Assembly (NCBI RefSeq): GCF_025666195.1
Contig: NZ_CP102592.1
Coordinates: forward strand, 3,844,001 to 3,908,000
Direction of reading: 5' to 3'
From: Xanthomonas sp. CFBP 8443
GTDB taxonomy: Bacteria > Pseudomonadota > Gammaproteobacteria > Xanthomonadales > Xanthomonadaceae
Length of the DNA stretch: 64,000 nucleotides
The notes beneath the pieces are model-generated. The model searched no databases and had not been told where the DNA came from. It saw only the letters and a list, made by a program, of their open reading frames with translations. The position numbers were made by a program, and so were the translations under genes. Below, one piece after another: positions 6,005-42,269 of this stretch. The first letter of the stretch is position 1, and every line of letters begins with the position of its first letter.

Positions 6005-6020
6005 TGCGCCGCGCGGGCGC

Positions 6021-9570: not shown

Positions 9571-9595
9571 GCCAACCGCCGGACGCAACGACACA

Positions 9596-9615
9596 GGGGC
9601 CGCAAGGCCCCTTTT
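9596..9615 (+). terminator. rho-independent terminator of bamD
   Basis: The stem GGGGCC (9596-9601) pairs with GGCCCC (9606-9611) around a GCAA loop and is followed by TTTT. It lies 25 bp after the bamD stop. Confidence 0.8.
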
Positions 9616-9813
9616 CGTTTGCCGACGCAGGCAACGGCCGGCAAGCGGGCGTTTGCTAGAACCGGCCGCTGCTCCGCCCGAACAGACGCGATCTGCGTGT
9701 GGTCCGCGACCGCTGCAGCCAATGCGCCCGACCCCATCGAGCAGCTGTCGCCAACCGGGCAAGTCGTCCACGCGTTCGCGCGCCGACCGGCGCCGCCCGG
9801 CTATGCTGGCGGC

Positions 9814-15073: not shown

Positions 15074-16053
15074 ACGCCGCGACCGCCCGTGCCCTGACCG
15101 AAGCCGCGCTCACCGACCTGCATCCGCAACCGGACGACATCGCCGCCGATGCGATCGCCGGCCTGTCGCGCAGCCCCAAGCAATTGCCGTCCAAGTATTT
15201 CTACGACGCCGAAGGCTCGCGCCTGTTCGAGGCGATCACCCGCCAGCCCGAGTACTACCTGACCCGCACCGAGCTGGATCTGCTGGAAGCGCGGATGCCG
15301 TCGATCGCGCAGGCGGTGGGCAGCGGCGCGCACGTGGTGGAACTGGGCAGCGGCAGCGGGCGCAAGACCGAACTGCTGCTGGAAGGCCTACGCACGCCGG
15401 TGGCCTACACCCCGATCGAGATCTCGCGCGACATGCTGATGTCCAGCACCGCGCGCCTGGCCGAGCGCTTCCCGGGCATCCAGATGCTGCCGGTCTGCGC
15501 CGACTTCACCACCCCGGTGGCGCTGCCGGCGCCGCAGCGCAGCGCGCGCCGCACCCTGGTGTTCTTCCCCGGCTCCACGCTGGGCAACTTCACCCGCGAG
15601 GACGGCATCAAGCTGCTGGCGTCGATGCGCGCGACGATGCGCCAGGACGGCTGCGCGCTGATCGGCATCGACCTGGTCAAGGACGTGGCGGTGCTGGAGG
15701 CCGCCTACAACGATGCGGCCGGCGTCACCGCCGAGTTCACCGTGAACCTGCTGCGCCGGCTCAACCGCGAGATCGGCAGCGATTTCGACCTGGAGCAGTT
15801 CCGCCATCGCGCGGTGTATGCGCGCGAACGCGAGCGCATCGAGACCTTCCTGGTCAGCCAGCGCGCGCAGCAGGTCCGCGTGGGCGGACGCCGCTTCGAC
15901 TTCGCCGCCGGTGAGGCCATGCAGGTCGAATACAGCCACAAGTACACCGACCAGAGCTTCGGCGAGATGGCCGCCGCGGCAGGCCTGCGCGTCAGCCACG
16001 GCTGGAACGCGCAGGACGATGCGTTCGGGTTGCGGTTGCTGCAGGTGGTGTGA
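15070..16053 (+). CDS. egtD: L-histidine N(alpha)-methyltransferase EgtD
   Basis: The 327-residue SAM-dependent enzyme trimethylates histidine to hercynine, the first step of ergothioneine synthesis. The N-terminus carries the family motif LPSKYFYDAEGSRLFEAIT near residue 38. The SAM-binding glycine loop VVELGSGSGRKTELLL follows near residue 92, and the conserved FFPGSTLGNF is near residue 168. The start codon overlaps the egtB stop, giving translational coupling and a near 1:1 supply of the two enzymes. Confidence 0.94.
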   Translation: MNAATARALTEAALTDLHPQPDDIAADAIAGLSRSPKQLPSKYFYDAEGSRLFEAITRQPEYYLTRTELDLLEARMPSIAQAVGSGAHVVELGSGSGRKTELLLEGLRTPVAYTPIEISRDMLMSSTARLAERFPGIQMLPVCADFTTPVALPAPQRSARRTLVFFPGSTLGNFTREDGIKLLASMRATMRQDGCALIGIDLVKDVAVLEAAYNDAAGVTAEFTVNLLRRLNREIGSDFDLEQFRHRAVYARERERIETFLVSQRAQQVRVGGRRFDFAAGEAMQVEYSHKYTDQSFGEMAAAAGLRVSHGWNAQDDAFGLRLLQVV

Positions 16054-16222: not shown

Positions 16223-17860
16223 CTACGCCTGATACCCGTTGGTGATCGGATAGCGCCGTTCGCGGCCGAACGCGCGCCGCGACACCTTCGGTCCCGGCGC
16301 GGCCTGGTGCCGTTTCCATTCGGTGATGCGCACCAGCCGCACCACGTGATCCACCACCTCCGCGGCGTAGCCGGCGGCGACGATCTCGTCGCGCGACTCC
16401 TCCTGGTCGACGTAGCGGTACAGGATGCCGTCGAGCACGTCGTAGGGCGGCAGCGAATCCTGGTCGGTCTGGTTGGCGCGCAGTTCCGCCGACGGCGGCC
16501 GCGCGATCACCGCCGGCGGGATCACCGGCGCGCCGCCGACCGTGTTGCGCCATTTCGCCAGGCCGAACACCTCGGTCTTGTACAGGTCCTTGAGCGGCGC
16601 ATAGCCACCGCACATGTCGCCGTAGATGGTGGCGTAGCCGACCGCATACTCGCTCTTGTTGCCGGTGGTCAGCAGCAGCCCGCCGAACTTGTTGGCCAGC
16701 GCCATCAGGATCACGCCGCGGCTGCGCGACTGCAGGTTCTCTTCGGTGACGTCGGCCTTGGTGCCTTCGAACATCGGGCCGAGCGCTTTCAACAAGCCTT
16801 CGAACGCCGGCTCGATCTCCACCGTCTCCAGCTTCACGCCCAGCGCGCGGCATTGTTCGTCGGCCAGGTCGTTGGACAGCCCAGCGGTGTAGCGCGACGG
16901 CAGCCGCACCGCGGTGACGTTGTCGGCGCCGAGCGCATCCACCGCCATCGCCAGCACCAGCGCCGAATCGATGCCGCCGGACAGGCCCAGCCACACCTTG
17001 GAAAACCGGTTCTTGCCGCAGTAGTCCTGCAACCCGCGCACCACCGCGCGCCAGGCCAGCGCGTCCATGCTCTCGTCGCCGTCGTCGATCCAGCGCAACG
17101 GGGTGAACGCGCGCGTCTGCGTCGCGTAGTCCACCACCAGCCATTGGTCGGTGAACGCGGCCGCGGCCGGATGCACGCTGCCGTCGCCGTCGGCGACCAC
17201 CGAGGCGCCGTCGAACACCAGCGCATCCTGGCCGCCGACGACGTTGAGATAGGCCAGCGCCACGCCGGTCTCGCGCACGCGCTCGGCCAGCAGCGCATCG
17301 CGCTGCGCGTGCTTGCCGCGCTCGAACGGCGAGGCATTGGGCACCAGCACCAATTCGGCGCCGTGGCGCGCGGTATCGGCCAGCGGCTCGGGAAACCACA
17401 GGTCCTCGCAGATCACCAGGCCGACCTGGGTGCCCTTGACCTCGAACACGCAGCTGCCGCCGTCCGGATCGGCGTCGAAATAGCGGCGCTCGTCGAACAC
17501 TGCGTAGTTGGGCAGTTCGCGCTTGCGGTAGGTGGTTTCGATGCGCCCGCCGCGCAGCACGCTGGCCGCGTTGTAGACCACGCTGCCGGCGCTCTGCGGC
17601 CAGCCGAGCACCGCGACGATGCCGTGCACGCGCACCGCGATGCGCTGCACCGCCAGTTCGCAATCGGCGAGGAAACCCGGGCGCAGCAGTAGGTCCTCCG
17701 GCGGATAGCCGCTGACCGCCAGTTCCGGAAACAACACGATGTCGGCGCCGTACTCGTCGCGCGCCTCGTCGATCATCGCGATGATCCGGTCGGTGTTCTG
17801 GGCCACGGCGCCGACCGGGAAATCGAACTGGGCCATGGCGATGCGAAGGGAAGAAGACAT
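16223..17860 (-). CDS. nadE: glutamine-dependent NAD+ synthetase
   Basis: This 545-residue enzyme amidates nicotinate adenine dinucleotide with ammonia released from glutamine. The N-terminal nitrilase-type glutaminase domain (residues 1-260) contains FPELAVSGYPPEDLL (catalytic Glu), TYRKRELPNY (Lys) and GLVICEDLWFPE (Cys). The C-terminal synthetase has the PP-loop LGLSGGIDSALVLAMA. The ATG at 17860 starts MSSSLRIAMAQFDF, the normal N-terminus. The frame is open to 17974, but the extra residues are basic and low-complexity. Confidence 0.94.
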   Translation of the reverse strand: MSSSLRIAMAQFDFPVGAVAQNTDRIIAMIDEARDEYGADIVLFPELAVSGYPPEDLLLRPGFLADCELAVQRIAVRVHGIVAVLGWPQSAGSVVYNAASVLRGGRIETTYRKRELPNYAVFDERRYFDADPDGGSCVFEVKGTQVGLVICEDLWFPEPLADTARHGAELVLVPNASPFERGKHAQRDALLAERVRETGVALAYLNVVGGQDALVFDGASVVADGDGSVHPAAAAFTDQWLVVDYATQTRAFTPLRWIDDGDESMDALAWRAVVRGLQDYCGKNRFSKVWLGLSGGIDSALVLAMAVDALGADNVTAVRLPSRYTAGLSNDLADEQCRALGVKLETVEIEPAFEGLLKALGPMFEGTKADVTEENLQSRSRGVILMALANKFGGLLLTTGNKSEYAVGYATIYGDMCGGYAPLKDLYKTEVFGLAKWRNTVGGAPVIPPAVIARPPSAELRANQTDQDSLPPYDVLDGILYRYVDQEESRDEIVAAGYAAEVVDHVVRLVRITEWKRHQAAPGPKVSRRAFGRERRYPITNGYQA

Positions 17861-28546: not shown

Positions 28547-30283
28547 TCAGTCCTTGGTGACGCGATTGATCTCGGCCAAGCTGGTGATGCCGTTGCGGGC
28601 CTTGAGCAGCGCCGACTGGCGCAGGTCCTTGACCCCGATCTTCTGCGCCGCCTCGGCGATGTCCATCGCGTTGCCGCCCTGCAGCACGATCGCCGCGATC
28701 TCGTCGTTCATCGGCATCACCTGGTAGATGCCGGTACGCCCCTTGTAGCCTTCGGTGCACTCGTCGCAGCCGACGGCCTCGAACAGCTGGATGCCGGCGG
28801 CGATTTCCGCCGCGCTGAATCCCTCGGCCAGCAGCGCATTCTCCGGAAGCTGGCTGGGGCGCTTGCAGTTGTTGCACAGGCGCCGCGCCAGGCGCTGCGC
28901 GATCACCAGCGTTACCGAACTGGTGATGTTGTACGGCGCGATGCCCATGTTCATCAGGCGCGCGATGGTCTGCGGCGCATCGTTGGTATGCAGCGTGGAC
29001 AGCACCATGTGGCCGGTCTGCGCCGCCTTGATCGCGATCTCGGCGGTCTCCAGGTCGCGGATTTCGCCGACCATGATGATGTCCGGATCCTGGCGCAGGA
29101 ACGAACGCAGCGCCACGGCGAAGGTCATGCCGCGCTTGTTGTTCTGCTGCACCTGGTTCACGCCGGGCAGGCGGATTTCCACCGGATCCTCGGCGGTGGA
29201 GATGTTGCGGGTATCGTCGTTGAGGATGCCCAGCGCGGTATACAGCGACACCGTCTTGCCCGAACCGGTCGGGCCGGTCACCAGCACCATGCCGTAGGGC
29301 TTGTGGATCGCGTCCAAGAACAGCTTCTGCTGTTCCGGCTCGTAGCCGAGCTTGTCGATGCCCAGCTTGGCCGCGCTGCCGTCGAGGATACGCAGCACGA
29401 TCTTCTCGCCGAACAGCGTCGGCAAGGTGCTGACACGGAAGTCGATCTGCTTGCTCTTGGACAGGTTGAGCTTGATGCGCCCGTCCTGCGGCACCCGCTT
29501 CTCGGCGATGTCCAGCTGCGACATCACCTTCAGCCGCGCCGCGATGCGCTGGTTGAGCTTGACCGGCGCCTTGGCCACGCTCTTGAGCAGGCCATCGATG
29601 CGCAGCCGCACCCGGTAGTCGTCCTCGTACGGCTCGAAATGGATGTCCGAGGCGCCGCGGCGGATTGCATCGACCAGCATCTTGTTCACGAACTTGACCA
29701 CGGGCGTGTCGTCGCCCTTGGCATCGACGCCGGTATCGCCGCCGCTGCCCATGTCCTCGTCGCCGGCCCCGACCTCGAGGTTGTCCATGCCCTCCTCGTC
29801 ATCGCCCAGCGCATTGCCGATCGCATCGCTGCGCGCCTGCCACTGCTCCAGCGTGCGCCGGATCTGGTCCTCGTCGACCAGGATCGGCTCGACCGTCAGA
29901 TTGGTATGGAACTTGATGTCGTCCAGCGCCCGGGTCTGGGTCGGATTGCTGATCCCGACGAACAGCCGCGTACCGCGCTTGAACAGCGGCAGCACCTGGT
30001 GCTTCTGCAGCAACTCCTCGCTGACCAGCTTGATCGCGCTCTGGTTGGCATCGAACACCGACACATCCAGCAGCGGCATCCCGAACTCCACCGCGTTGGC
30101 GGCAGCCAGCTGCGCCGCGGTGGCCAGCTTCTTCTCCGAGAACCACTGCGGCAGCGGGATCTTGGCCTCGGCGGCATGCGCCATCGCGGTCCGCGCGACC
30201 GCCTCCTCCACCGCGCCATCCTGAACCAGGCGGCGCGCGATGCCGGTGATGCCAACTAGGTTGGCCGAGACAGCTGCATTCAT
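28547..30283 (-). CDS. pilB: type IV pilus assembly ATPase PilB
   Basis: The 578-residue motor ATPase drives pilus extension. An N-terminal MshEN-like region (residues 1-150) precedes an acidic, glycine-rich linker. The ATPase domain holds Walker A GPTGSGKTVSLY, the Asp and His boxes (RQDPDIIMVGEIRD, GHMVLSTLHTNDA) and a zinc tetracysteine site (CNNC and CDEC). ATG 30283 gives the usual N-terminus MNAAVSANLVGITG. It faces the glycosyltransferase block and is separated from pilA/pilC by about 10 kb, whereas these genes are normally close together. Confidence 0.95.
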   Translation of the reverse strand: MNAAVSANLVGITGIARRLVQDGAVEEAVARTAMAHAAEAKIPLPQWFSEKKLATAAQLAAANAVEFGMPLLDVSVFDANQSAIKLVSEELLQKHQVLPLFKRGTRLFVGISNPTQTRALDDIKFHTNLTVEPILVDEDQIRRTLEQWQARSDAIGNALGDDEEGMDNLEVGAGDEDMGSGGDTGVDAKGDDTPVVKFVNKMLVDAIRRGASDIHFEPYEDDYRVRLRIDGLLKSVAKAPVKLNQRIAARLKVMSQLDIAEKRVPQDGRIKLNLSKSKQIDFRVSTLPTLFGEKIVLRILDGSAAKLGIDKLGYEPEQQKLFLDAIHKPYGMVLVTGPTGSGKTVSLYTALGILNDDTRNISTAEDPVEIRLPGVNQVQQNNKRGMTFAVALRSFLRQDPDIIMVGEIRDLETAEIAIKAAQTGHMVLSTLHTNDAPQTIARLMNMGIAPYNITSSVTLVIAQRLARRLCNNCKRPSQLPENALLAEGFSAAEIAAGIQLFEAVGCDECTEGYKGRTGIYQVMPMNDEIAAIVLQGGNAMDIAEAAQKIGVKDLRQSALLKARNGITSLAEINRVTKD

Positions 30284-30434: not shown

Positions 30435-31292
30435 TTGGACAAGATCAGCATCATTCTGCCAGCCAAGAACGAGGTGGCCGGTCTGTCGCGCACGCTGCCG
30501 CGGCTGCGCGAGGAAATGCCGGATGCCGAGATCATCGTGGTCGACGACGGCTCGACCGATGCGACCGCGCAGGTCGCGCGCGACCATGGCGCCCGGGTCA
30601 TCGGCAGTCCCTACTCGATGGGCAACGGTGCGGCGATCAAGCGCGGCGCACGGGCCGCGGGCGGCGACATCCTGGTGTTCATGGATGCGGACGGACAGCA
30701 CGATCCAGGCGACATCCACAAACTGCTGGCCAAGCTCGGCCAAGGCTATGACATGGTCGTAGGCGCCCGCGACAGCAGCGGACAGGCGAGCGTGCACCGC
30801 GGCCTCGCCAACCGCTTCTACAACTGGCTGGCCAGCCGCATGACCGGCTTCGAGGTGAAAGACCTCACCTCCGGCTTCCGCGCCGTCCGCGCGGACAGGT
30901 TCCGCGAATTCCTGCACCTGCTCCCGAACGGGTTCAGCTACCCCACCACCAGCACCATGGCCTTCTTCCGCAGCGCCTACCCGGTCGCCTACGTGCCGAT
31001 CCCCGTCGCCAAGCGGGTCGGCAACGGCAGCCACATCCGCCCCATGAAGGACGGCATCCGCTTCCTGTTGATCATCTTCAAGATCGCCACGTTGTATTCG
31101 CCGCTTAAGCTATTCGTCCCGGTCTCGATGGCATTCTTCGCCCTCGGACTCGCCTACTACGGCTATACCTTTGCGACGATGCACCGCTTCACCAACATGA
31201 GCACGTTGTTGTTCAGTGCCGCAGTGATCATTTTTCTGATCGGGCTGATTTCCGAGCAGATCACCAATCTGACGTATCGGCGCGACGCCTGA
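30435..31292 (+). CDS. family 2 glycosyltransferase (DPM1/DolP-mannose synthase-like)
   Basis: The 285-residue product has the GT-A signature of polyprenyl-phosphate sugar transferases: ISIILPAKNE at the N-terminus, IIVVDDGSTD and the metal-binding VFMDADGQHDPGD. Two C-terminal helices (KLFVPVSMAFFALGLAYYG and LLFSAAVIIFLIGLIS) anchor it. Such enzymes load a sugar onto undecaprenyl phosphate for later use by periplasmic GT-C transferases, which fits the GT-C gene at 37.8-39.7 kb. The TTG start at 30435 is supported by AGGGG at 30423-30427. The open frame continues upstream to 30240 but overlaps pilB. Confidence 0.86.
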   Translation: MDKISIILPAKNEVAGLSRTLPRLREEMPDAEIIVVDDGSTDATAQVARDHGARVIGSPYSMGNGAAIKRGARAAGGDILVFMDADGQHDPGDIHKLLAKLGQGYDMVVGARDSSGQASVHRGLANRFYNWLASRMTGFEVKDLTSGFRAVRADRFREFLHLLPNGFSYPTTSTMAFFRSAYPVAYVPIPVAKRVGNGSHIRPMKDGIRFLLIIFKIATLYSPLKLFVPVSMAFFALGLAYYGYTFATMHRFTNMSTLLFSAAVIIFLIGLISEQITNLTYRRDA

Positions 31293-31315
31293 ATGCACGC
31301 GGTGCGAGCCGAAAC

Positions 31316-32518
31316 ATGACCAAGCCGACACTCTTGGTGCTGGCCTCCACCTATCCTCGCTGGCGCGACGACCCAGAGCCTGGCTTCGTCCATGAGCTTG
31401 CCAGGCGCTTGACCGACCGCTTTCGGGTCGTGGTGCTGTGCCCCCACGCGAATGGGGCGCTTGAGTACGAAACGATGGATTCAGTTGAAATCCATCGTTA
31501 TCGATATGCCCCACAGCGCTGGGAAACGCTCGTGAACGACGGCGGCATGGTTTCCAACGTGCAACACAGTCCTTGGAAGGCGCTCCTGCTGCCTGGATTC
31601 TTCATCGGCCAGTTGTTCGCTGCCTACCGTGCCGTCCGCAGGTATCGCCCGACCGTCGTTCATGCGCACTGGCTGATACCGCAGGGCATCGTTGCCACAG
31701 CACTAAGCCTTGCCGGTTCTTCCTCGCCCTTTCTGGTCACATCCCATGGCGGAGATCTGTACGCGCTGAAGTCGTGGCCTTTTCGCTGGATCAAGCGCGC
31801 TGTGATACGGCGATCGGCGCGACTGGCCGTCGTCAGCGAAGGCATGCTGCAGCAGGTCGCCGCTCTGGGTGCAGACATGTCCAAGGTGGTGGTGGAGCCG
31901 ATGGGGGCCGATCTTTCCGGCAGGTTCGTTCCCGACCCCACCGTGCCACGGTCGCGCACGGAGATACTGTTCGTCGGCCGGCTCGTGGAAAAAAAAGGCC
32001 TTCGTTTCCTGATCGCTGCGATGCACGCGATCCGGGCTGCCGTACCCGGTGCCACTTTGACAGTTGCCGGGTTCGGACCCGAACTGGAGATGCGTAAGGA
32101 ACAGGTCCGCGACCTGGAACTGCAGGACGCCGTCCGCTTTCTGGGTGCGGTTCCCCAGTCGGAGCTTCCCTCCCTCTACCGCCGCGCCGCCTTGTTCGTC
32201 GCTCCTTTTGTCGAGGCAACAAGTGGCGACCAAGACGGCCTCGGACTCGTATTGATAGAAGCACTGGGCTGCGGTTGCCCGGTCTTGGTCTCGGCCATCC
32301 CTGCAGTCCGGCGCTTGGCCGAGACATGCAATGGAGTGCATACGGTGCCGCCGGGTAGCACAGCAGCATTAGCCGACGCCATTTCGCGCCTGGTCCGCTC
32401 GCCGCAGCCGGTCGATCCAAACGAGGTGCAAGGCTTTGATTGGCATGTGCGTGCCGGAGCATACGCCGCATTGTTGGATACCGTGATGCGACGATGCGAA
32501 GTCGCTTCTCCACGATGA
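31316..32518 (+). CDS. family 4 glycosyltransferase
   Basis: This 400-residue GT-B enzyme begins MTKPTLLVLASTYPRWRDDPEPGFVHELA. Its C-terminal nucleotide-sugar domain has ILFVGRLVEKKG near residue 220 and the E-x7-E-like region EATSGDQDGLGLVLIEALGCG near residue 300. It probably adds a sugar to a lipid-linked glycan in the cytoplasm. It starts 23 bp after the family 2 transferase gene, and its stop overlaps the flippase start (ATGA), so the three form an operon. Codon use is noticeably less GC-biased than in the pil genes. Confidence 0.85.
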   Translation: MTKPTLLVLASTYPRWRDDPEPGFVHELARRLTDRFRVVVLCPHANGALEYETMDSVEIHRYRYAPQRWETLVNDGGMVSNVQHSPWKALLLPGFFIGQLFAAYRAVRRYRPTVVHAHWLIPQGIVATALSLAGSSSPFLVTSHGGDLYALKSWPFRWIKRAVIRRSARLAVVSEGMLQQVAALGADMSKVVVEPMGADLSGRFVPDPTVPRSRTEILFVGRLVEKKGLRFLIAAMHAIRAAVPGATLTVAGFGPELEMRKEQVRDLELQDAVRFLGAVPQSELPSLYRRAALFVAPFVEATSGDQDGLGLVLIEALGCGCPVLVSAIPAVRRLAETCNGVHTVPPGSTAALADAISRLVRSPQPVDPNEVQGFDWHVRAGAYAALLDTVMRRCEVASPR

Positions 32519-33765
32519 ACGCCAAGTTCCGCATGCCAAAACTGGGCTGGCTCGCACGCAACACTCTGGGCACGACGCTCTGGCACGCTTTGCGAGTAGG
32601 CAGCCAACTCGTCTGGGTACTGCTGTTGGCGCGTGTACTCGGGGCATCCGGATACGGAAACTACTCCGGCGTTGCCGGCCTAGCCGTTGCGCTGGGAGGC
32701 TTCGCCGGCTTCGGGCTTGGTTTGCGCATGTACCAAGATACTGCACGCGACCAGACCTTGTTCCCCATGAGATGGCAGCAGGCAGGGCGCGCGTTGGCAT
32801 GGAGTACACCGCTGCTTCTGCTCGCGTACGTAGTGCTTGGGAGCGCCATGTTCCACCAGCCGGGCGGCTGGATACTGCTCGGCATCGGGCTATCGGAAAT
32901 TCTGTTCGCACCGATCATCGCGCAGGTCGCTTCCGCATACGCTGCCCATACACTGGTGCTGCAGGCAGCGGCTGTACCCGTTGCAGGGTCCTTGGCAAGG
33001 GTCGCCGCGGTCGCCGCCTTCATGCAGTTCCAATCTGGCCAAGGGCTTTCCCTGTACGTCTGGCTGCATCTGACAGCGCTGGCCGCTTGCGCCATCTTGT
33101 TGCGGCACGGCTGCACAAGGCGGCTACTGGCAAACTCGCCAAACCACTCACTTGCCTGGATCGACTTGCGAGCCGGCATCGGGCTTTCCGGCATCTGGGC
33201 CAGCACGATGGCCTGGACCTCCGTAGACAAGACGTTCGCATTGCGCTGGGGAGGCGAAGCGGTCGCAGGGAACTTCACCGCAGCTCAGCGGTTCACAGGG
33301 CTGGCGACACTCCCGATCGAAGGACTCATCGGTGCGGCGCTGCCTCGCATGTTTCGGCAGGGAGCGGGCATGAACGAGCACCCATTCATGATGCGGGCGC
33401 TGCTCGCATGCACCTTTGCCTATGGGTTGGCCGCCGCCCTGCTTCTTTACTTCGCATCGGGCGCCATCGTCGCGATATTGGGCAGCGACTTCACATCCGC
33501 CGCGGCCGTCGTAAAGCTGCTCGCCTGGTGCGCGCCCGTCAGTTGCATGCGGATCCTGTTGGCGCACTGGCTCCTGGCGAGAAGCGACATCCGGGCCAGG
33601 GTATTGCTGGAGACGATCGGCCTTTGCGCCCTGGCGTGCGCAATGTTCGCCCTCACCCCTACGCGAGGAGCATTAGGCTCCGCCTGGGCCATGATCGCAG
33701 GCGAATGCACCTTGGTGTTTCTGTTCTCCATCCGCCTGATCACGCATCGGGCGAGCGCGACCTGA
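32515..33765 (+). CDS. polysaccharide flippase (Wzx/MOP superfamily)
   Basis: The 416-residue membrane protein has about twelve hydrophobic helices and starts in family style (WLARNTLGTTLWHALRVGSQLVWVLLLARVLGASGYGNYSGV). It would flip lipid-linked sugars across the inner membrane. Start ATG 32515 overlaps the preceding glycosyltransferase stop. An upstream in-frame ATG at 32494 is less likely. Its last 26 bp overlap the end of the converging glycosyltransferase gene. Confidence 0.83.
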   Translation: MNAKFRMPKLGWLARNTLGTTLWHALRVGSQLVWVLLLARVLGASGYGNYSGVAGLAVALGGFAGFGLGLRMYQDTARDQTLFPMRWQQAGRALAWSTPLLLLAYVVLGSAMFHQPGGWILLGIGLSEILFAPIIAQVASAYAAHTLVLQAAAVPVAGSLARVAAVAAFMQFQSGQGLSLYVWLHLTALAACAILLRHGCTRRLLANSPNHSLAWIDLRAGIGLSGIWASTMAWTSVDKTFALRWGGEAVAGNFTAAQRFTGLATLPIEGLIGAALPRMFRQGAGMNEHPFMMRALLACTFAYGLAAALLLYFASGAIVAILGSDFTSAAAVVKLLAWCAPVSCMRILLAHWLLARSDIRARVLLETIGLCALACAMFALTPTRGALGSAWAMIAGECTLVFLFSIRLITHRASAT

Positions 33766-34900
33766 CGCGAATTCGCGGCCGAAGTCCCGCGACAAGCTCT
33801 TCATAAGCATCGATTGATTTTTGCACGCCAAACTCTGCCGCCCGTCGCCTCAACACGTCAGGCTCGACCCGGCACCTACCGTCGATGACACGGATCAACG
33901 CTTCGGCCAGCGCATCGTGATCGCCACAGCGGACAAGCTGCCCCAGCCGCCCATCCTCCAGGATTTCGCGCGGTCCGTCGGGACAATCCGTCGAAACCAC
34001 CTGGGTCCCGCACGCCATCGCCTCCACGAGAACATTGCCGAAGCCCTCGTAGTCTGAGCACAGGACCAGGACGTCGGCCTGGCGAATATAGGGCAAGGGG
34101 TTGGCGACATAGCCAAGCCGCTCGCAAGTTGCACCCAATCCCGCCTCATTCATCCATTGCGACACTCGGGACTCCAGAGGCCCGGTTCCAATCAGCAGCA
34201 GCCGCGCGGGCTTTTGAGTGAGGACGCGAGAAAATGCGCGAAGCAGGAGATCAAGACGCTTCTCCGGCGAAAATCGGCCGACGAAGACGACGGTGGGAAC
34301 GCTCCGGTCCGGCCACGGCCAGTCCACCTGTTGCAAAGAGCGCAATTCGCAGTCAGGCGCCACCACCGGATTGTGGATCACGCTGACCTTGTCCGGCGAC
34401 AGCCCCAACTCAGAGCGCATATCGCTAGCCACCGCTTCGGACACGGCGACACACGAATCGGCACGGGGGAAAAGCAGCCGCATCGCGCGCATGAGCAATT
34501 CGAGCTTCACCCGCCTGGCACCGCGACTTGCAATCCTTGGACCCGATACCGACAGGTGCTGGGTAACCACCACCCGTACTGGTTTCCGGTAAAGCAACTT
34601 CAAGAGCAGGACAAGACAAGCCACGTCGTTGGACGTCGTGAAAATTACATCTGGTGCCTGCCGCCGCCACCCGCGCAGGAAACCTGATAAAAAATGAAAA
34701 GGCCCACTTGGCGCGATTTCAAGAACCGGAACGTTCGCCGTAAGCCCATCAGGATGCACAAGCACCTGCCCCGCAACAAGCTTGACGTGGTGACCTCGAA
34801 GGCAAAGCCCATTGGCCAGCGCAACCTGCACACGCTCCAGACCTCCATGACCGAATCGGCTCAGGAGAAGCCAAATATTGGCTGGCTCAGAATCCGTCAT
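33740..34900 (-). CDS. family 4 glycosyltransferase
   Basis: The 386-residue GT-B enzyme has an N-terminal acceptor domain (LLLSRFGHGGLERVQVALANGL) and a C-terminal donor domain. The donor domain contains VVFVGRFSPEKRLDLLLRAF, LLLIGTGPLE and the retaining-enzyme motif DYEGFGNVLVEAMACGTQVV. Its family places it among UDP- or GDP-sugar transferases, but donor and acceptor are unknown. It is the last gene of a three-gene minus-strand unit, following the FkbM methyltransferase with a one-base gap. Confidence 0.87.
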   Translation of the reverse strand: MTDSEPANIWLLLSRFGHGGLERVQVALANGLCLRGHHVKLVAGQVLVHPDGLTANVPVLEIAPSGPFHFLSGFLRGWRRQAPDVIFTTSNDVACLVLLLKLLYRKPVRVVVTQHLSVSGPRIASRGARRVKLELLMRAMRLLFPRADSCVAVSEAVASDMRSELGLSPDKVSVIHNPVVAPDCELRSLQQVDWPWPDRSVPTVVFVGRFSPEKRLDLLLRAFSRVLTQKPARLLLIGTGPLESRVSQWMNEAGLGATCERLGYVANPLPYIRQADVLVLCSDYEGFGNVLVEAMACGTQVVSTDCPDGPREILEDGRLGQLVRCGDHDALAEALIRVIDGRCRVEPDVLRRRAAEFGVQKSIDAYEELVAGLRPRIRVRSRSPDA

Positions 34901-34901
34901 T

Positions 34902-35771
34902 CTATCCGGCGACGGTACAAAGCACGTTCTGGTAAGGCCCGAGAGAGGAACGGTCGACTTTCCTTAACGTCCCATCGGACCGGATGACCTGGAACCTATA
35001 TCCGAGCTCCTGCAGGTAGTCCAATATCTCGCCCGGATCGTACCCCGCCTTCAACGAGGATTCCTGCTGGACCTCCACGATCAACGAGGGCTTGTACTTC
35101 CCCAGCGTGAGCCTGGCGCCCTGCAGACAGGCCAGCTCGGCACCTTCGATATCGACCTTGATGATGTCGACCCTGCGGAGTGGATTTGCATCGAGATAAG
35201 CGTCCAGCGTCGTTATTTCGATATCCTGAAGTGCGCGATCGTGCGAAGGTGTCCCAAACAGGCTGCCCAGCCCATGATGCTCGTCTCCAAGCTCTCCTTG
35301 CCCGCAGGAAGCGAAGATCGGTACATGGTCATGTCGATTCGACAACCCTTGGCGTACCACCGTGACGTTGCGGAGATCGTTTCGCAGCACATGGCTGCAC
35401 AACGTGTCGGCGAGGCTGTCGACAGGTTCAAACGAAACGACCCTTCCTGCCTGACCCACGCGCTTCGCCGCCACCAGTGTGATTTCACCGATATTGGCGC
35501 CAACATCGATGACGCTCATGCCGGGCGCCAGGATGCGGTCCAACAAGGCCACGATGCCCTGGCTGTAGTACCCCATCCAGAAGATGCGCCGCTGCATGTG
35601 TTCCGTCAAAGACAGGTCCATCGCCATGTCGCCGTCAAAATCTCCGATGCTGACCACGGCCCTGTGATGCCGGAAGAGCCGCCTCATGATGGATTGAGGA
35701 GCATTGAACCGGCCGCCAAATGAGAACGCTCTGGCAGAGGCACGGAGACCGAGCAAGGTATTGGCCTTCAC
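34902..35771 (-). CDS. FkbM-family methyltransferase
   Basis: This 289-residue SAM-dependent O-methyltransferase contains the SAM loop GMSVIDVGANIGEITLVAAK near residue 85. The FkbM motifs are RVDIIKVDIEGAELACLQGA and PSLIVEVQQES. FkbM proteins often methylate sugar hydroxyls in surface glycans. GTG at 35771 overlaps the stop of the upstream methyltransferase (GTGA) and has a G-rich Shine-Dalgarno sequence a few bases upstream. The open frame extends to 35828 within the neighbouring gene. Confidence 0.84.
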   Translation of the reverse strand: MKANTLLGLRASARAFSFGGRFNAPQSIMRRLFRHHRAVVSIGDFDGDMAMDLSLTEHMQRRIFWMGYYSQGIVALLDRILAPGMSVIDVGANIGEITLVAAKRVGQAGRVVSFEPVDSLADTLCSHVLRNDLRNVTVVRQGLSNRHDHVPIFASCGQGELGDEHHGLGSLFGTPSHDRALQDIEITTLDAYLDANPLRRVDIIKVDIEGAELACLQGARLTLGKYKPSLIVEVQQESSLKAGYDPGEILDYLQELGYRFQVIRSDGTLRKVDRSSLGPYQNVLCTVAG

Positions 35772-36580
35772 CTGTCCCCCCCCTTGTCCGGCGCGTGATT
35801 CAGCTTGCGCAGGACATAGATGTGGCACGACGAGCCCAGCAAAAACGAGAGACTCTGCCTCCGCGAGATCGACAACTTATGCGCAAATGAATTGCACATC
35901 GTGTAGAAGATACCGGTCGACTGTGTCGTGACGGCCTCAAAGCCCCCCTTTTGGAACGTTCCCGACCACCACGAGCGGGAAAAATAGAATGTCTCCGTCA
36001 ACACGTTGCCTCTTTCTCCGTGCCTCGAAGGAAACAGCGTCTTCCGCCATTCATCGAAGCCCGATGGGGTCTTTGGGATTGCAAGGGAATTCTCGCCCTC
36101 AACTGGCGCTTTCGTGGAGGTGGAAACCCGTTGCAGCACCCGGCGCGCCAGCCAGAGATAGTGGCCAGGGATGCTCCAGAGACGGCAAGAGCTACTGGGC
36201 AGCACGTGCACAGCGTGACCATCGCGCTTGAGCACGCGCCTCGTCTCATCCAGGATGCGGTCGATGTCCGCGACATGCTCAAGAACGTTCGAGGAAAAAA
36301 CGACATCGAACGCGCCATCGGCAAATGGCAGCGTGCGTCCATCGTAGTCCTCGACTTCGAAGACCCGTGCATCATGGTAGTGGCTGCTTGGCAAATCGAC
36401 CGCGCTCACCTCATAACCAGCGTCCCTCAGCATCAAGGCCTGCTGACCAGTCCCCGCCCCGAGCTCCAGGACGGTTACCGTCCGGCCAGGCGCAGGAACT
36501 GGAAAGAACGCAAGGGCCTGCCGCAACTCGTATGCCCGAATCGCCTGCAAGCTCTTGAGATGATGTTCGCTGGCGGACAT
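35768..36580 (-). CDS. class I SAM-dependent methyltransferase
   Basis: The 270-residue product has a methyltransf_11-type fold: VTVLELGAGTGQQALMLRDAG near residue 35, then LPFADGAFDVVFSSNVLEHV and the following LDETRRVLKRDGHAVHVLP. The C-terminal half (SRSWWSGTFQKGGFEAVTTQ) is typical of enzymes in polysaccharide clusters. The substrate is unknown, probably a sugar or lipid-linked sugar. It is the first gene of the minus-strand trio and diverges from the glycosyltransferase at 36693. Confidence 0.82.
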   Translation of the reverse strand: MSASEHHLKSLQAIRAYELRQALAFFPVPAPGRTVTVLELGAGTGQQALMLRDAGYEVSAVDLPSSHYHDARVFEVEDYDGRTLPFADGAFDVVFSSNVLEHVADIDRILDETRRVLKRDGHAVHVLPSSSCRLWSIPGHYLWLARRVLQRVSTSTKAPVEGENSLAIPKTPSGFDEWRKTLFPSRHGERGNVLTETFYFSRSWWSGTFQKGGFEAVTTQSTGIFYTMCNSFAHKLSISRRQSLSFLLGSSCHIYVLRKLNHAPDKGGDR

Positions 36581-36692
36581 TGACGACTCTGGAGTGCGAG
36601 ATCTGGCTGCGGTTAATCTAACGCCTGCACGGTAAGCTTGCCAGACCGCCGCGCGCGCGGCGCTTCAGCGCCGATCGACAGGAAATGCCCGA

Positions 36693-37808
36693 GTGAAGAT
36701 ATTGGTGGTATGCAAGCGGCAGTACTCGGACAAGGATCTCCTTGAAGACCGCTTCGGGCGACTGTACGAGCTTCCTCGCGAACTGGCCCGGCAGGGCCAC
36801 TCGGTGCGCGTCTGTGCGCTCAGCTATCGCCGGCGCCCGGAAGACGCTACTCCCAAGCCAGACGATCTCGGCGTCCAGTGGCATTCGATCAACGCACTGC
36901 CACAGGGCCTTCTTCGCCATTTCCAGTGGCTCGACACAGCGACCTCCCGCTGGCGTCCAGATGTCGTGTGGGCCAGTTCAGACATGCTCCAGGCGGTGCT
37001 TGCCGCCAAATGGGCGATCAAACGAGACGTTCCCTACGTCATCGATCTCTATGACAACTATGAGAGCTTCGGGCTCTCGCGGCTACCCGGCCTGTCTGGC
37101 GCATTTCGATCGGCTTGCCGCCGCGCGTATGCATTGACAACGGTCAGCCACGCCCTTGCGGAGTATGTCCGTGGGGACTACCGCGTAGCCGGTCCTGTCC
37201 ATGTCGTGGTGAATGGCGTGAACACGGAGATCTTTCACCCCCTCGACAAGCACTCCTCCAGAACCGCGTTGGGACTGCCAGTCGATGCGCGCCTGATCGG
37301 TACAGCAGGGGCGCTGACTTCGAGTCGGGGCATCAGCGATCTTTTTGACGCTTTCATCCAACTGGCCCAAGGCATGCAAGACCTTTGGCTGGTTCATGCC
37401 GGGCCAACCGATCGGACAGTTCGCCGCTATCGGCACCCTCGCATCATCGACTTGGGGAGACTTCCGCAGACCGAGGTACCCCGTGTTCTGGCGTCGTTGG
37501 ACGTCGGGGTCGTGTGCAATCGAAGTTCAGCGTTCGGACGCTACTGCTTTCCGCTGAAACTACATGAAATGTTGGCGATGCGCATTCCGTTGGTGGCCAC
37601 AGCACTGGGGGACGTTGCACAGGTACTGGACAACCATGCGCCCTGTCTTTACGAGCCAGGCAATGTGGAGATGCTGGCGTACCGCATTTCTACGCAGTTG
37701 GCACATCCCTCAGTTCGCGCAATCCGCATACCGACTTGGCGCGATTGCGCAATCATGCTCGATTCGGCACTTCGGGCTACAACCGCCGGCGCGTCGACGC
37801 AGACGTGA
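36693..37808 (+). CDS. glycosyltransferase (GT-B, family 4-like)
   Basis: This 371-residue enzyme starts at GTG (MKILVVCKRQYSDKDLLEDRFG). It contains YVIDLYDNYESF, TTVSHALAEYVRGDY, VVVNGVNTEIFHPLD and KLHEMLAMRIPLVAT. Together these indicate a GT-B fold with a simplified donor domain. It stands alone between two minus-strand units. A four-copy GACGC tandem repeat spans its stop codon (37807-37826), so slippage there could extend or change the tail. Donor and acceptor are unknown. Confidence 0.82.
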   Translation: MKILVVCKRQYSDKDLLEDRFGRLYELPRELARQGHSVRVCALSYRRRPEDATPKPDDLGVQWHSINALPQGLLRHFQWLDTATSRWRPDVVWASSDMLQAVLAAKWAIKRDVPYVIDLYDNYESFGLSRLPGLSGAFRSACRRAYALTTVSHALAEYVRGDYRVAGPVHVVVNGVNTEIFHPLDKHSSRTALGLPVDARLIGTAGALTSSRGISDLFDAFIQLAQGMQDLWLVHAGPTDRTVRRYRHPRIIDLGRLPQTEVPRVLASLDVGVVCNRSSAFGRYCFPLKLHEMLAMRIPLVATALGDVAQVLDNHAPCLYEPGNVEMLAYRISTQLAHPSVRAIRIPTWRDCAIMLDSALRATTAGASTQT

Positions 37809-37826
37809 CGCGACGCGACGCGACGC
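37807..37826. repeat. GACGC pentanucleotide tandem repeat (4 copies)
   Basis: Four perfect copies of GACGC begin inside the TGA of the preceding glycosyltransferase and end 15 bp before the stop codon of the converging GT-C gene. Five-base repeats can change reading frame by slippage, but here the repeat is outside both main coding regions. Confidence 0.8.
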
Positions 37827-37840
37827 GTGGAGTCCCACAC

Positions 37841-39700
37841 CTATTTCAGCATGCCGAGTTCTTTGGCCCTTTCATGCGCGACAGACGCCTGCTCTTGATG
37901 CCCTTCCTGAAGCAGCGTGGAAATCATCTTGGCGGCAAACGCAGTGTCCGATCTGCCCGCCTCCACTGCTCTAGTGAACATCAGGTTGGCAAACGTGGCG
38001 TCATGCAGGTAGGTCAGGCCATAGTCGCCGAATTGGGCATACATGAAAGCAGGGACGCCGTCCCGATTGGCCAGCGCGACGCATGCCTCCTTTAGCTTCC
38101 CGTCGTCGATCGCCACACCGCGCTTTCGCCGTTGAATCAGGTCAGAGATGGATGATACGACATCCGCCGAAAGCGGCTTTGTTTTCAGCTTCGAGATCAA
38201 GCCTGACCACCACTCGTTCTTGACCGGCTTGCCATAGGCCAGCGCCATCAGAATGAGCCCCTGCTCGGGCAGCGTCGATGCGCTTGGCAGAGCGGCAGCA
38301 GCCTCGAACTGTTGCTCGGCCAAGCTATACAAGGGCGAATCGCCGTCTCCATTGGCGCGTTCAACGAGCGCAATGGCAAGACCGGTTCTCGCCCGTGCGG
38401 ACTGTGGATTCACGTCCACCAGCTCATTGAAGAAAAGGAACCCATTGCCCCACGTTGCCGAACGAATGGCGCAAAGGCCAACCATGAAGACGACTACAGC
38501 GGCAACACCGACATACTTGATTGCAGGACCATCCCTCAACGGGATGATGCGCACCAATTCGGCAAGCACAAGGAGTACTCCGAGCAACGAGAAATAGTTC
38601 CTGTGCTCAAAAACAAGCTCAAGATCTATCGCGTTGCTCGTCAACAGGTGCCCCGCAAAAAACCAGAAAACCCCGAGCGACAGCAATGGCATCGCTCGCC
38701 GCGCAAACCAGCCCACACAAAGTAGAGCGACGATAAAGAGCCAAGAAAAAAGTGTCGTTACCGGCGAGAGCAGCCCGACAGACTTCGGATAGGAATCGTA
38801 ATAAAAAATCAAACTTTTCGGCAACGGCAGGGCGATCTGCTGAAGGTAAAGAACCAATACCCTCCCCTGGGTAAGCAAGCGCTCATAGAGCGTGAAATCC
38901 CGCCCTTGGAAGGCACCAGGCCGAAGCGCCCGCGGCAAGATCCACCCGAAGAATATCGCGCTCGCGACCAACCCGAACGCCAAGTACAAGGCGATCAGCA
39001 GTCGCCTATCTCGTCGCTTATTCGCAGCGAAGCGGAACAGGCAAACTTCCAGCGAGAAGGCATACGCGCCGAAAAGCGCAGCGGATTCCTTGGACAACAG
39101 CCCAACCAAGGCGAGCGCCCCGGAAAAGCAGAGCCATCCCCACCCGGAACCGCCTTCTATCTGCCGTTGTCTTCCATGCAGGTAGACAATGAGCGCCAGC
39201 AACACGAACGTCAGCGACAGCGACTCCATTCGCTGAACTACATACAGTACCGTAGACACCTGCAGGGGATGCACAGCCCACAGCAAGGCAACGACCAGGC
39301 AATAGCCGATCCCACGCCGAACAGACGTCGTGGCGGCACCGCGTGTCATCTTCAACAACAGGGCAAACACCAGCCAAGCGTTGACGACGTGGACTACCAC
39401 CCCGGTCAACTTATAGCTCCAAGCATTTTCGCCCGAGAAGTACCAGTTCAGAGCAAAACTCAAGGTAGCCAACGGCCTGCCAACGGAGCCCGGCTCGTAG
39501 CCCATGGCCGAGCTCTTCAAGTTCTGGAAGTTTAATTCAGCAAGATGGATCTTCGCGTTGTCGACGATATTCGGGTAATCGTCGAACAAGAATGGCCCCG
39601 TCAGCCCAGGCCAATATACGGCCAGAACGACGATCGCCAATACGACAACTCCAAGCCACGGGGAGGCAACCAACGCACGCAAGGTTGGCGGATTCGCCAT
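37841..39700 (-). CDS. GT-C-type membrane glycosyltransferase with TPR-like tail (TfpW-like pilin glycosyltransferase candidate)
   Basis: The 619-residue protein has about eleven hydrophobic helices (residues 10-410). The first periplasmic loop carries an acidic pair in GPFLFDDYPNIVDN, the hallmark of lipid-phosphosugar-dependent GT-C enzymes such as TMTC and Wzy/PglL relatives. The C-terminal 190 residues are helical and TPR-like (ARARTGLAIALVERA, LAEQQFEAAAALP). It starts 40 bp after the second pilin gene on the same strand, where Pseudomonas group IV strains carry tfpW, the pilin arabinosyltransferase. A role in O-glycosylating the adjacent pilins is inferred. ATG 39700 with GGGGAT upstream is preferred to GTG 39703. 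Confidence 0.8.
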   Translation of the reverse strand: MANPPTLRALVASPWLGVVVLAIVVLAVYWPGLTGPFLFDDYPNIVDNAKIHLAELNFQNLKSSAMGYEPGSVGRPLATLSFALNWYFSGENAWSYKLTGVVVHVVNAWLVFALLLKMTRGAATTSVRRGIGYCLVVALLWAVHPLQVSTVLYVVQRMESLSLTFVLLALIVYLHGRQRQIEGGSGWGWLCFSGALALVGLLSKESAALFGAYAFSLEVCLFRFAANKRRDRRLLIALYLAFGLVASAIFFGWILPRALRPGAFQGRDFTLYERLLTQGRVLVLYLQQIALPLPKSLIFYYDSYPKSVGLLSPVTTLFSWLFIVALLCVGWFARRAMPLLSLGVFWFFAGHLLTSNAIDLELVFEHRNYFSLLGVLLVLAELVRIIPLRDGPAIKYVGVAAVVVFMVGLCAIRSATWGNGFLFFNELVDVNPQSARARTGLAIALVERANGDGDSPLYSLAEQQFEAAAALPSASTLPEQGLILMALAYGKPVKNEWWSGLISKLKTKPLSADVVSSISDLIQRRKRGVAIDDGKLKEACVALANRDGVPAFMYAQFGDYGLTYLHDATFANLMFTRAVEAGRSDTAFAAKMISTLLQEGHQEQASVAHERAKELGMLK

Positions 39701-39740
39701 CACAAGATCCCCGGACCGTAATCGCTACTCAGAAAATCAA

Positions 39741-40151
39741 TCATCCACATCCTTCAGGCCGATACTTCTCGGGTACATCACTGCCATCGCAACTCCACAC
39801 GCCGGACATGCTCCGGCGCAGCGACAGCGTCGTTCCAGTGACCATGTCGTTGCCGGCCAGAACGCAGCTGATGCCGCCAACTCCGGTTGCAGCGTCAACC
39901 GAAGCAGTTATCTCGGGACATCGCGCGGATGATGATAGGCCTATGTAGGAGGCACTGACATCACTGCCCCTGCCGTCATTGAATGCCGCCTCGAGGCCAG
40001 TCTGCCCGCCCCGAATTTCGCTCAACGCCGCCACGACCTGTGAACGCGAGACATAATTGATGTAGCCCTGAAGTGCGATCGCAGAAAGAATTGCCACTAT
40101 AGCGATCACCATCATCAGCTCGATCAAGCTGAAACCCTTCTGATCGCGCAT
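39741..40151 (-). CDS. pilA: type IV pilin PilA (second, promoter-distal copy)
   Basis: The 136-residue prepilin has a class III leader cleaved after Gly6 (MRDQKG, then FSLIELMMVIAIVAILSAIA), with the conserved Glu5 of the mature protein. The head domain has Cys pairs in SSARCPEI/GGISC and in WSCDGSD/PEGC. Roughly half of its residues match the upstream pilin by eye, including the KYRP tail. Its Shine-Dalgarno region (GGGGAG) directly abuts the terminator of the first pilin gene, and no separate promoter is evident. Expression therefore probably depends on read-through. It could be a minor or alternative pilin, or an additional glycosylation substrate. Confidence 0.9.
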   Translation of the reverse strand: MRDQKGFSLIELMMVIAIVAILSAIALQGYINYVSRSQVVAALSEIRGGQTGLEAAFNDGRGSDVSASYIGLSSSARCPEITASVDAATGVGGISCVLAGNDMVTGTTLSLRRSMSGVWSCDGSDVPEKYRPEGCG

Positions 40152-40164
40152 GCCTTTGCTCCCC

Positions 40165-40199
40165 CCAAAAAAGAAGACCCCACTGCGTGGGGTCTTCTT
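40165..40199 (-). terminator. rho-independent terminator between the two pilin genes
   Basis: A perfect 12-bp stem (40171-40182 with 40188-40199) with a CTGCG loop is followed on the minus strand by TTTTTT. It lies 20 bp after the stop of the first pilin gene and only 14-20 bp before the start of the second. This should give high first-pilin and low second-pilin expression. Confidence 0.88.
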
Positions 40200-40218
40200 C
40201 AAGCAAGACAAGAAATTA

Positions 40219-40626
40219 TTACAGCGCCGTGGTGCAGGTGCTCGGACGGTACTTTGCGGTAGCATCGGTCGAGCAGGCCCAGTTGCCGGACGCATTACGA
40301 GTCCACCGAATCGACTTCCCTTGGACGCCATCGCCACCGATCATGACGCAGTTGATATTGCCGGTATCACCCGCGGTCGGGGTGATGGCACTGCAACGGC
40401 TCGTGGCAGAAGTCAGACCAATATCGCTAGCGCTAGCGATGCTCTTGCCTTCATTGGTCAGCACTTCGAACTGCGTCTTGCCCGGGGTGATGTCGGACAG
40501 GGCCGCGGTGACCTGCGACTTGCGCACGTAGTTCTGGTAGGCCGGCAGCGCGATGGCGGCCAGGATGGCGATGATCGCGACGACGATCATCAGTTCGATC
40601 AGGGTAAAGCCCTGCTGCTTCTTCAT
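40219..40626 (-). CDS. pilA: type IV major pilin PilA
   Basis: The 135-residue prepilin starts MKKQQG, then [20 protein letters not shown], with cleavage after Gly6 and Glu5 present; PilD at 42.3 kb is its processing enzyme. The mature head has Cys residues at SRCSAI/NINC and WACSTD/STCTTAL. Many Ser and Thr residues ([34 protein letters not shown]) offer O-glycosylation sites. ATG 40626 has AGGGGA six bases upstream. A sigma-54 promoter lies about 105 bp upstream. It is divergent from pilC. Confidence 0.95.
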
Positions 40627-41009: not shown

Positions 41010-42269
41010 ATGTCCGCAACTCGTAGCGCAGTACCCAAAGAGCCCGTCGCGCGCAATACCAGCCAGCAGCTGCCGTTCGTCTGGGAAGGGACGGATAAGC
41101 GCGGCGTCAAGATGAAGGGCGAGCAGACCGCCAAGAACGCCAACCTGCTGCGCGCCGAACTGCGCCGCCAGGGCATCACGCCGTCGGTGGTCAAACCCAA
41201 GCCCAAGCCGCTGTTCGGCTCTGCCGGCAGCAAGATCAGCGCGAAGGACATCGCCTTTTTCAGCCGCCAGATGGCGACGATGATGAAGTCGGGCGTCCCC
41301 ATCGTGGGGTCGCTGGAGATCATCGGCAGCGGGCACAAGAACCCGCGCATGAAGAAGATGGTGGATCAGGTCCGCACCGACATCGAGGGCGGTTCGTCGC
41401 TCTACGAGGCGATCAGCAAGCATCCGATCCAGTTCGACGAGCTCTATCGCAACCTGGTCAAGGCCGGCGAAGGCGCAGGCGTGCTGGAGACCGTGCTGGA
41501 GACGGTCGCGACCTACAAGGAAAACATCGAAGCGCTGAAGGGCAAGATCAAGAAGGCCTTGTTCTACCCGGCCATGGTCATGGCGGTCGCCCTGCTGGTC
41601 AGTTCGATCCTGCTGGTGTGGGTGGTGCCGCAGTTCGAGGATGTGTTCAAGGGCTTTGGTGCGGAGCTGCCGGCGTTTACCCAGATGATCGTAGCTGCAT
41701 CGCGCTTCATGGTTGCCTATTGGTGGATGCTGCTGATCGTCTTGGTCGGCACCATCGTCGGCTTCATCTTCGCCTACAAACGCTCGCCGTCGATGCAGCA
41801 CGGCATGGACCGGCTGATTCTGAAGGTACCGATCATCGGCCAGATCATGCACAACAGCTCGGTGGCACGCTTCTCGCGGACGCTGGGCGTGACCTTCCGC
41901 GCCGGCGTGCCCCTGGTGGAGGCGCTGGACATCGTCGCCGGCGCCACCGGCAATAGCGTGTACGAAAAAGCGGTGCTGCGCATGCGCGACGACGTGTCGG
42001 TCGGCTACCCGGTCAACGTGGCGATGAAGCAGACCAACCTGTTTCCGCATATGGTCATCCAGATGACCGCCATCGGCGAAGAGGCCGGTGCGCTGGATGC
42101 GATGCTGTTCAAGGTGGCCGAGTACTTCGAGCAGGAAGTGAACAATGCGGTGGATGCGCTGAGCAGCCTGATCGAGCCGTTGATCATGGTGTTCATCGGC
42201 ACCATCGTCGGCGGCATGGTCATCGGCATGTACCTGCCCATCTTTAAGCTGGCCTCCGTCGTTGGATAA
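41010..42269 (+). CDS. pilC: type IV pilus inner-membrane platform protein PilC
   Basis: This 419-residue protein has two T2SSF domains (about residues 85-210 and 288-410) and three membrane helices. One helix group follows [26 protein letters not shown] and the last is [21 protein letters not shown]. Family motifs include [20 protein letters not shown] and [19 protein letters not shown]. It couples PilB to pilus assembly. ATG 41010 with GGGGAG at 40997-41002 gives the normal N-terminus [12 protein letters not shown]. An upstream start at 40854 would add an arginine-rich stretch. Confidence 0.95.

Follow-up and report, generated by a model that had tools for sequence, protein, structure and literature searches.

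What is a run of glycosyltransferase genes doing between the type IV pilus genes pilB and pilC? The question is raised by a locus in the window, i.e., the whole stretch of 64,000 nucleotides from Xanthomonas sp. CFBP 8443 analyzed here (NZ_CP102592.1, positions 3,844,001 to 3,908,000; the genome is a single contig of 5.24 Mb), in which the gene order is pilB / GT2, GT4a, MATE/Wzx-like, GT4b, FkbM-MT, Methyltransf_11, GT4c, GT-C / pilA2, pilA1 / pilC, with gene families assigned by Pfam and NCBIfam. A first-pass annotation had named this gene set and read it as a pilus glycosylation system; every gene was recovered with its reading frame open, and the comparative tests support a dedicated pilin-modification locus with a synthase, glycan builders, a flippase, and GT-C, although the acceptor may be PilA2 and not PilA1. 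On the basis of gene content, linkage, co-variation, and fold class, we consider that this is very probably a glycosylation locus dedicated to pilin, belonging to the type that combines a polyprenyl-phosphate sugar synthase with a flippase and a GT-C.

The distribution of the GT-C gene (37841..39703, minus strand, likely start ATG at 39700) ties it to pili. Its relatives occur in 76 of 149 genomes of the family with 109 matches, 104 of which share a contig with pilB, all at a distance of 0.6–22.7 kb from it, with 102 on the pilB strand and 5 sitting on contigs other than that of pilB. The comparison of the pilB-pilA interval across Xanthomonas, which had been proposed as a check, separated the genomes cleanly: among 20 genomes of the genus, the 9 with GT-C each carry it inside a pilB-pilC interval of 7.1–12.0 kb, versus 0.97–2.9 kb in the 11 without it (lengths computed from gene coordinates). 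The Fisher and hypergeometric P values count genomes as independent; kinship is corrected for in the independent-pairs test alone, on a quickly built tree that carries a long-branch warning (L068 with L069; such handles denote individual loci), and an interval above 6 kb failed this test (median P 0.125). In a collection separate from the family genomes, comprised of the best 79 of more than 561 GT-C relatives, 73 of 79 named loci have an open reading frame (ORF) bearing a prepilin motif no farther than 1.5 kb from the GT-C array, and 132 such ORFs were found in the 230 kb near the array versus none in the 584 kb lying more than 5 kb away. The six loci lacking a nearby pilin (L087, L120, L125, L128, L132, L143) are on contigs shorter than 10 kb, except for L120. 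Class-wide, a GT-C relative is present in 111 of 369 genomes, and outside the family a pilin occurs within 1.5 kb of GT-C in 17 of the 28 best-scoring loci. GT-C often occurs as tandem pairs beside two pilins (L095-L152, many Dyella, Rhodanobacter, and Luteibacter loci), and L092, from a record named as a contig of a Rhizobium metagenome-assembled genome, bears a Lysobacterales-like pilB-pilC-GT-C locus that is probably misbinned.

This linkage also bears on whether the cluster instead serves lipopolysaccharide (LPS) or exopolysaccharide, being placed next to pilus genes either by chance or to be regulated together with them. Polysaccharide loci commonly contain GT4, flippase, and methyltransferase families, and many exopolysaccharide and LPS models scored below cut-off in the NCBIfam scan; against this, the pilin association in 73 of these best 79 loci is unlike chance, and no Wzy_C/O-antigen ligase match was found in the pilB-pilC interval, the two Wzy_C matches of the genome being at 4.15 and 4.56 Mb, outside the window at 3.84–3.91 Mb. 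We therefore regard this explanation as very improbable.

The second constant element of the locus is the GT2 gene (30435..31292, plus strand; PF00535, 114 bits), which is divergent from pilB (28547..30283, minus strand; TIGR02538, 878.8 bits against a cut-off of 675.65), the gene for the pilus extension ATPase at the left border. The GT2 protein has two C-terminal hydrophobic segments (judged by eye), and its PDB matches include ArnC (58.9 bits), dolichol-phosphate-mannose synthase (56.7 bits), and sll0501 (47.3 bits), which we take to be GtrB; its domain is thus related to solved polyprenyl-phosphate glycosyltransferases of the ArnC/GtrB/DPM1 class. An assignment to the AglJ equivalog (TIGR04182) was rejected, with 124.8 bits against a cut-off of 325. 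Across the 149 genomes, GT2 (E 1e-60) and GT-C (E 0.001) are both present in 72 and both absent in 72, with GT-C only in 4 and GT2 only in 1. In all 72 genomes with GT2 and pilB on one contig, GT2 lies divergently beside pilB, and its distances track those of pilB across genera (Mantel 0.69, 33 loci). This makes the earlier description of the cluster as an inserted island misleading, since the GT2 end co-diverges with pilB and consistently adjoins it. The DNA is indeed less GC-rich, as had been noted, with guanine-plus-cytosine content falling from 65.3% in pilB to 60.9% in the middle genes and 56.6% in GT-C, versus 67.6% for the window (pilC is low as well, at 61.6%). On a pilB tree of 20 genomes, the presence of GT-C shows some clustering, with a minimum of 4 changes (a count as low was reached in 13 of 500 shuffles), and that tree cannot separate gain from loss. 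Taken together, the comparisons suggest, instead of a simple insertion, a long-standing locus that has undergone losses and exchanges within it, and whose GT2 end would have been inherited with pilB. In Roseateles, two pilins, GT-C, and GT2 occur in a row (L144), with no pilB match inside the 21.7-kb locus; this is a compact form of the system. A second GT2/GT-C set is encoded elsewhere in the Xanthomonas sp. CFBP 8443 genome at about 1.400–1.405 Mb (L155:2929-7676), where a PMT_2-type GT-C (615 residues) and a second GT-C-like gene (620 residues; a weak match, GT87/PMT_2 below cut-off) flank a GT2 on one strand.

What kind of enzyme is GT-C? Taken alone, the protein has no Pfam or NCBIfam match, and among 60 relatives Pfam recovered PMT_2 in 8 and TPR_19 in 7. 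In the predicted model (predicted local distance difference test score 92), the protein folds like the protein glycosyltransferases STT3 and PMT and ends in a TPR-like tail. In keeping with the GT-C superfamily, there is a multi-helix membrane core with an acidic residue in the first periplasmic loop, and the alignment has an Asp pair, D40 D41, that is invariant in 60 rows and presumably provides the catalytic acidic residues. A PDB sequence search with GT-C alone gave no match, and one with the GT-C profile gave 47 sequences, chiefly designed and natural TPR proteins, with no GT-C enzyme among them. Neither GT-C alone nor its 60 relatives matched a Wzy_C/WaaL-like domain as found in O-oligosaccharyltransferases (O-OTases) such as PglL, PglS, TfpO, and TfpM. 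The TMTC O-mannosyltransferases combine a GT-C core with TPR repeats, and the protein described here shares this architecture of a GT-C core followed by C-terminal TPR-like repeats; however, it is bacterial and pilin-linked, and PF08409, which we take to be the TMTC-specific Pfam domain, is absent from the 8 families that the 60 relatives gave at E 0.001. Among the matches listed, its closest named relatives are from Xanthomonas, namely X. bonasiae FX4 (95%), along with X. translucens and X. cerealis, and a search of viral contigs for the family gave 74 pattern matches and no relatives.

Between these two constant enzymes lies a variable set of genes: in the window, two plus-strand genes, GT4a (31316..32518; PF13692/PF00534) and a MATE/Wzx-like flippase candidate (32515..33765; PF01943 at 25.5 bits, under the 28.2 cut-off, its profile class being shared with clearer members elsewhere), three minus-strand genes, GT4b (33740..34900; PF13692, 124.9 bits), an FkbM-family methyltransferase (34902..35828, start uncertain; PF05050 at 88.3 bits, TIGR01444 above cut-off), and an S-adenosylmethionine methyltransferase (35768..36580; Methyltransf_11, PF08241, 67.4 bits), and plus-strand GT4c (36693..37808; PF13439/PF13692). 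The three GT4 proteins are of the GT-B type, and a PDB search with the flippase gave no match. The window thus combines a GT2 synthase, a flippase candidate (with its Pfam score below cut-off), and GT-C in one locus. We annotated the interval from pilB to GT-C in 64 loci, 54 of them non-redundant, with profiles seeded from members tested against Pfam. In this set a GT4 was scored in 48 of 54 loci (counting L057, with an LPG-GT4 fusion, as lacking one) and a methyltransferase in 50 of 54. The flippase candidate is a MATE protein in 18 and an LPG_synthase_TM protein in 30, with no locus having both (hypergeometric 1.4e-9). Two of the 54 (L072, L132) have wrong intervals, with a pilC match inside; in the corrected set of 52 valid loci, after a Pfam check, the counts are MATE 18, LPG_synthase_TM 31, both 0, and ABC transporter 1, giving a flippase candidate in 50 of 52. 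Of the remaining two loci, L070 has an unassigned 7-segment protein in its place, and in L067 the interval annotation found no flippase candidate. Iterated profiles define the LPG class: when 11 of its members were run against Pfam beforehand (thresholds 0.001 or 0.01), 7 matched PF03706, 2 of them above cut-off, and 4 had no match, whereas all 6 MATE members so examined matched PF01943 or PF13440, that of the window below cut-off.

The type of flippase goes with the number of GT4 genes, which the profiles put at 1–3 in MATE loci and 0–1 in LPG loci. The GT-C tree requires a minimum of 12 changes of flippase type, 9 of them forced by supported branches (46–49 of 500 shuffles gave a count as low). 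Of 9 independent pairs, 7–9 have more GT4s with MATE and none has the opposite (P 0.004–0.016). Our interpretation is a single pathway that comes in two grades, in which LPG-type proteins would flip short glycans and Wzx-type proteins longer ones. The lone exception found, which counts against this trend, is L111 (Lysobacter prati; 16324-17352 and 14554-15741), where an LPG_synthase_TM protein is accompanied by two GT4 genes; as it entered the independent-pairs model with one GT4, GT4s may be undercounted elsewhere. In L057 a single 690-residue ORF (8361-10430) comprises an LPG_synthase_TM domain fused to a GT4, and L078 has an ORF that equals it in size and score; the fusion supports the view that flippase and transferase act jointly. 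The locus L069, with a distant GT-C, has an ABC transporter (ABC_membrane + ABC_tran) and a CDP-glycerol glycerophosphotransferase (4320-6182 and 9017-10354) replacing the usual flippase, which suggests a different glycan.

The variability of the middle genes raises the alternative that GT-C transfers a single lipid-linked sugar made by GT2, with the middle genes making something else or modifying that sugar and no oligosaccharide being attached. Such an economy would fit the almost perfect co-occurrence of GT2 and GT-C while the middle varies, the compact arrangement in Roseateles, where the two pilins, GT-C, and GT2 are direct neighbors, and L126, in which GT2 is accompanied by a single methyltransferase and a single flippase candidate (recognized by its profile, with no Pfam match) and no GT4 was found. 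It accords poorly with the scoring of a GT4 in most loci, including every MATE locus, with the retention of a flippase candidate in nearly all, and with the one-sided outcome of the independent pairs, as expected if glycan size matters; we consider it decidedly unlikely. A glycan assembled on the lipid and then moved to pilin is our preferred reading.

Which pilin would receive it? Two are encoded on the minus strand, pilA1 for the putative major pilin (40219..40626) and pilA2 for the second pilin (39741..40151), both matching PF00114 and PF07963. Between them is a hairpin terminator or attenuator (40167..40199, minus strand), with a 13-bp perfect stem followed by a U run (fold z -4.27, 0 of 200 shuffles), which a generic terminator scan missed and folding found; this places pilA2 and GT-C behind an attenuator-like site. 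The earlier statement that GT-C follows the pilins on the same strand thus holds for pilA2, but GT-C is not directly behind the putative major pilin, as it would be in the TfpW arrangement. A terminator-like site follows the first pilin in 8 of 9 GT-C-bearing genus loci (in the ninth, L035, the filter missed pilA1), in all 10 examined without GT-C (1 of 11 was not examinable), and in 36 of 70 examined among the other named loci (78 given); being unspecific to GT-C loci, it offers no evidence for glycosylation.

Co-variation is more telling. From 108 loci given, 41 have exactly one GT-C, pilB, and GT2 and two pilins; removal of 8 that were near-duplicates or had missing values left 33 loci for the Mantel tests, and the tandem loci are outside these because exactly one GT-C was required. 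GT-C distances correlate with those of pilA2 at 0.74 and of pilA1 at 0.64 given pilB (both P 0.001), versus 0.00 with GT2 (P 0.49) and -0.05 with pilB. Conditioning additionally on the other pilin leaves 0.50 for pilA2 (P 0.001) and 0.16 for pilA1 (P 0.07), and the globular parts alone give 0.47 and 0.03, respectively. By these distances, the pilins and GT-C evolve as a single unit, mainly via pilA2, with GT2 following pilB, a pattern that is new here. The co-variation points to PilA2 as the closest partner of GT-C and a possible acceptor. Carried further, GT-C might act on PilA2 alone, the second and probably minor pilin, so that the glycan would be on few subunits, or PilA2 would serve as an adaptor, with PilA1 left unmodified. 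The conditional correlations favor this, as do the joint placement of pilA2 and GT-C behind the terminator and the presence of two pilins by homology in 9 of 9 GT-C-bearing genus loci versus 2 of 11 others. Yet pilA2 adjoins GT-C, such that linkage alone predicts the same ranking, and for the pilin-linked enzymes TfpO and TfpW the protein modified is the major pilin associated with them (PMC11841053, PMC12645811). We therefore see PilA2-only modification as a possible but somewhat unlikely outcome, and retain a glycosylation locus serving the adjacent pilins. PilA1 Ser/Thr content is slightly higher in GT-C-bearing species (8 versus 10 sequences, P 0.016, kinship uncorrected), a difference too weak for use.

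Gene-by-gene comparisons reveal how the locus is put together. Relative to G111 (handles with G denote genomes), identity is 98% for GT2, 81% for GT4a, 77% for the flippase, 71% for FkbM, 62% for GT4b, and 61% for GT4c, falling to 37% for GT-C, 43% for pilA2, and 58% for pilA1; the Methyltransf_11 gene has no match in G111. Relative to G159, identity is 100% for pilC, 98% for GT2, 79% for pilA1, 60% for pilA2, and 52% for GT-C, while the six middle genes of the window have no match (E 1e-8, half coverage). These contrasts indicate that the middle and the pilin and GT-C block are exchanged separately. The locus would therefore appear to consist of three blocks not delineated before, namely GT2, passed down together with pilB, and two exchangeable parts, the glycan-building middle and the block of pilins and GT-C. 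Extending this, we tentatively propose, at somewhat less than even confidence, a combinatorial pilus-antigen locus across the Lysobacterales and beyond, with a fixed donor synthase and with glycan and pilin + GT-C cassettes recombining independently between pilB and pilC, so that strains would reassort pilin and glycan types much like O-antigen loci; GT-C would be matched to PilA2 but would tolerate variation in the glycan, and LPG_synthase_TM proteins would be short-glycan flippases replacing Wzx/MATE, mostly where there is at most one GT4. Neighboring genes also co-travel for mechanical reasons, such that the co-variation is support for physical matching and no proof of it. Exchange and variability of the pilA region are known in Xanthomonas (PMC4235730, PMC4584326), and swapping of glycan and pilin cassettes could explain part of that variability.

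We infer the following order of steps, along with the sugars, lipid carrier, acceptor residue, and roles that it implies. GT2 would load the first sugar onto undecaprenyl phosphate, GT4a–c would lengthen the lipid-linked glycan in the cytoplasm to up to about four sugars, the two methyltransferases would methylate it, and the MATE protein would flip it. In the periplasm, GT-C would then move the glycan from the lipid to Ser/Thr of the adjacent pilins, with its TPR tail as the likely pilin-recognition surface. The biological role may lie in changing the surface of the pilus, perhaps as protection from phage: phages use type IV pili as receptors (PMC11841053), and their success in infecting the cell may thus depend on the glycan.

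The closest worked-out analogue, as it is described in PMC11127046, is a three-component pathway of Citrobacter (cf. Gtr systems), comprised of a polyprenyl-phosphate-ribose synthase, a MATE flippase, and a GT136 GT-C acting on O-antigen. It shares with the present locus the joint encoding of a lipid-phosphosugar synthase, a flippase, and a GT-C, and differs in its O-antigen acceptor and carbohydrate-binding module, whereas here we find pilin linkage, intervening GT4s and methyltransferases, and a TPR-like tail. TfpW of group IV Pseudomonas aeruginosa adds D-arabinofuranose to pilin (PMC11841053), and pilin accessory genes are reported there behind an attenuator-like site after the pilin. By description, the likeness extends to a glycosyltransferase gene close to the pilin and downstream of a terminator after pilA (here with pilA2 in between), and putatively to a non-O-antigen glycan on pilin; the difference lies in the GT2 donor synthase and multi-enzyme glycan locus between pilB and the pilins, set against the D-arabinofuranose of TfpW. 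The first-pass annotation was right that the lipid-phosphosugar synthase, glycan-building enzymes, flippase, and GT-C found together here go beyond a lone TfpW. The genes for the O-OTases TfpO, TfpM, and PglS likewise adjoin those for their pilins, but these enzymes have Wzy_C/WaaL-type domains (PMC12645811), whereas GT-C has none that we could find and its model is PMT/STT3-like. In the account of Xanthomonas vesicatoria BNM 214/216, the pilB-pilC interval contains a hypothetical protein, pilin-like 2, EamA, two glycosyltransferase genes, and another hypothetical protein (PMC10333488, 2023), so that glycosyltransferase genes and a transporter again lie between pilB and pilC; that account of the interval gives gene content only and proposes no system or function. 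A literature search, subscription papers and preprints excluded, returned no description of GT-C, its pairing with GT2, or the cassette structure. Delivery of a lipid-linked glycan to pilin by a dedicated enzyme encoded beside it has a precedent in TfpW, as described in the work cited, and the architecture is new relative to it. The locus would add a GT-C-based class of pilin glycosylation, which does not figure in the O-OTase table of a 2025 review (PMC12645811).

At the right border, pilC (41010..42269, plus strand, start uncertain) scores below cut-off with PilC/GspF models and has an orthologue in all 20 genus genomes. Elsewhere in this genome, at about 4.562–4.568 Mb (L153:1749-8288), a Wzy_C O-antigen-ligase-like gene (705 residues) adjoins a PMT/PMT_2 GT-C (712 residues), with a CDP-glycerol transferase-like gene and rsmB- and fmt-like genes as neighbors, and this may be another surface or protein glycosylation locus.

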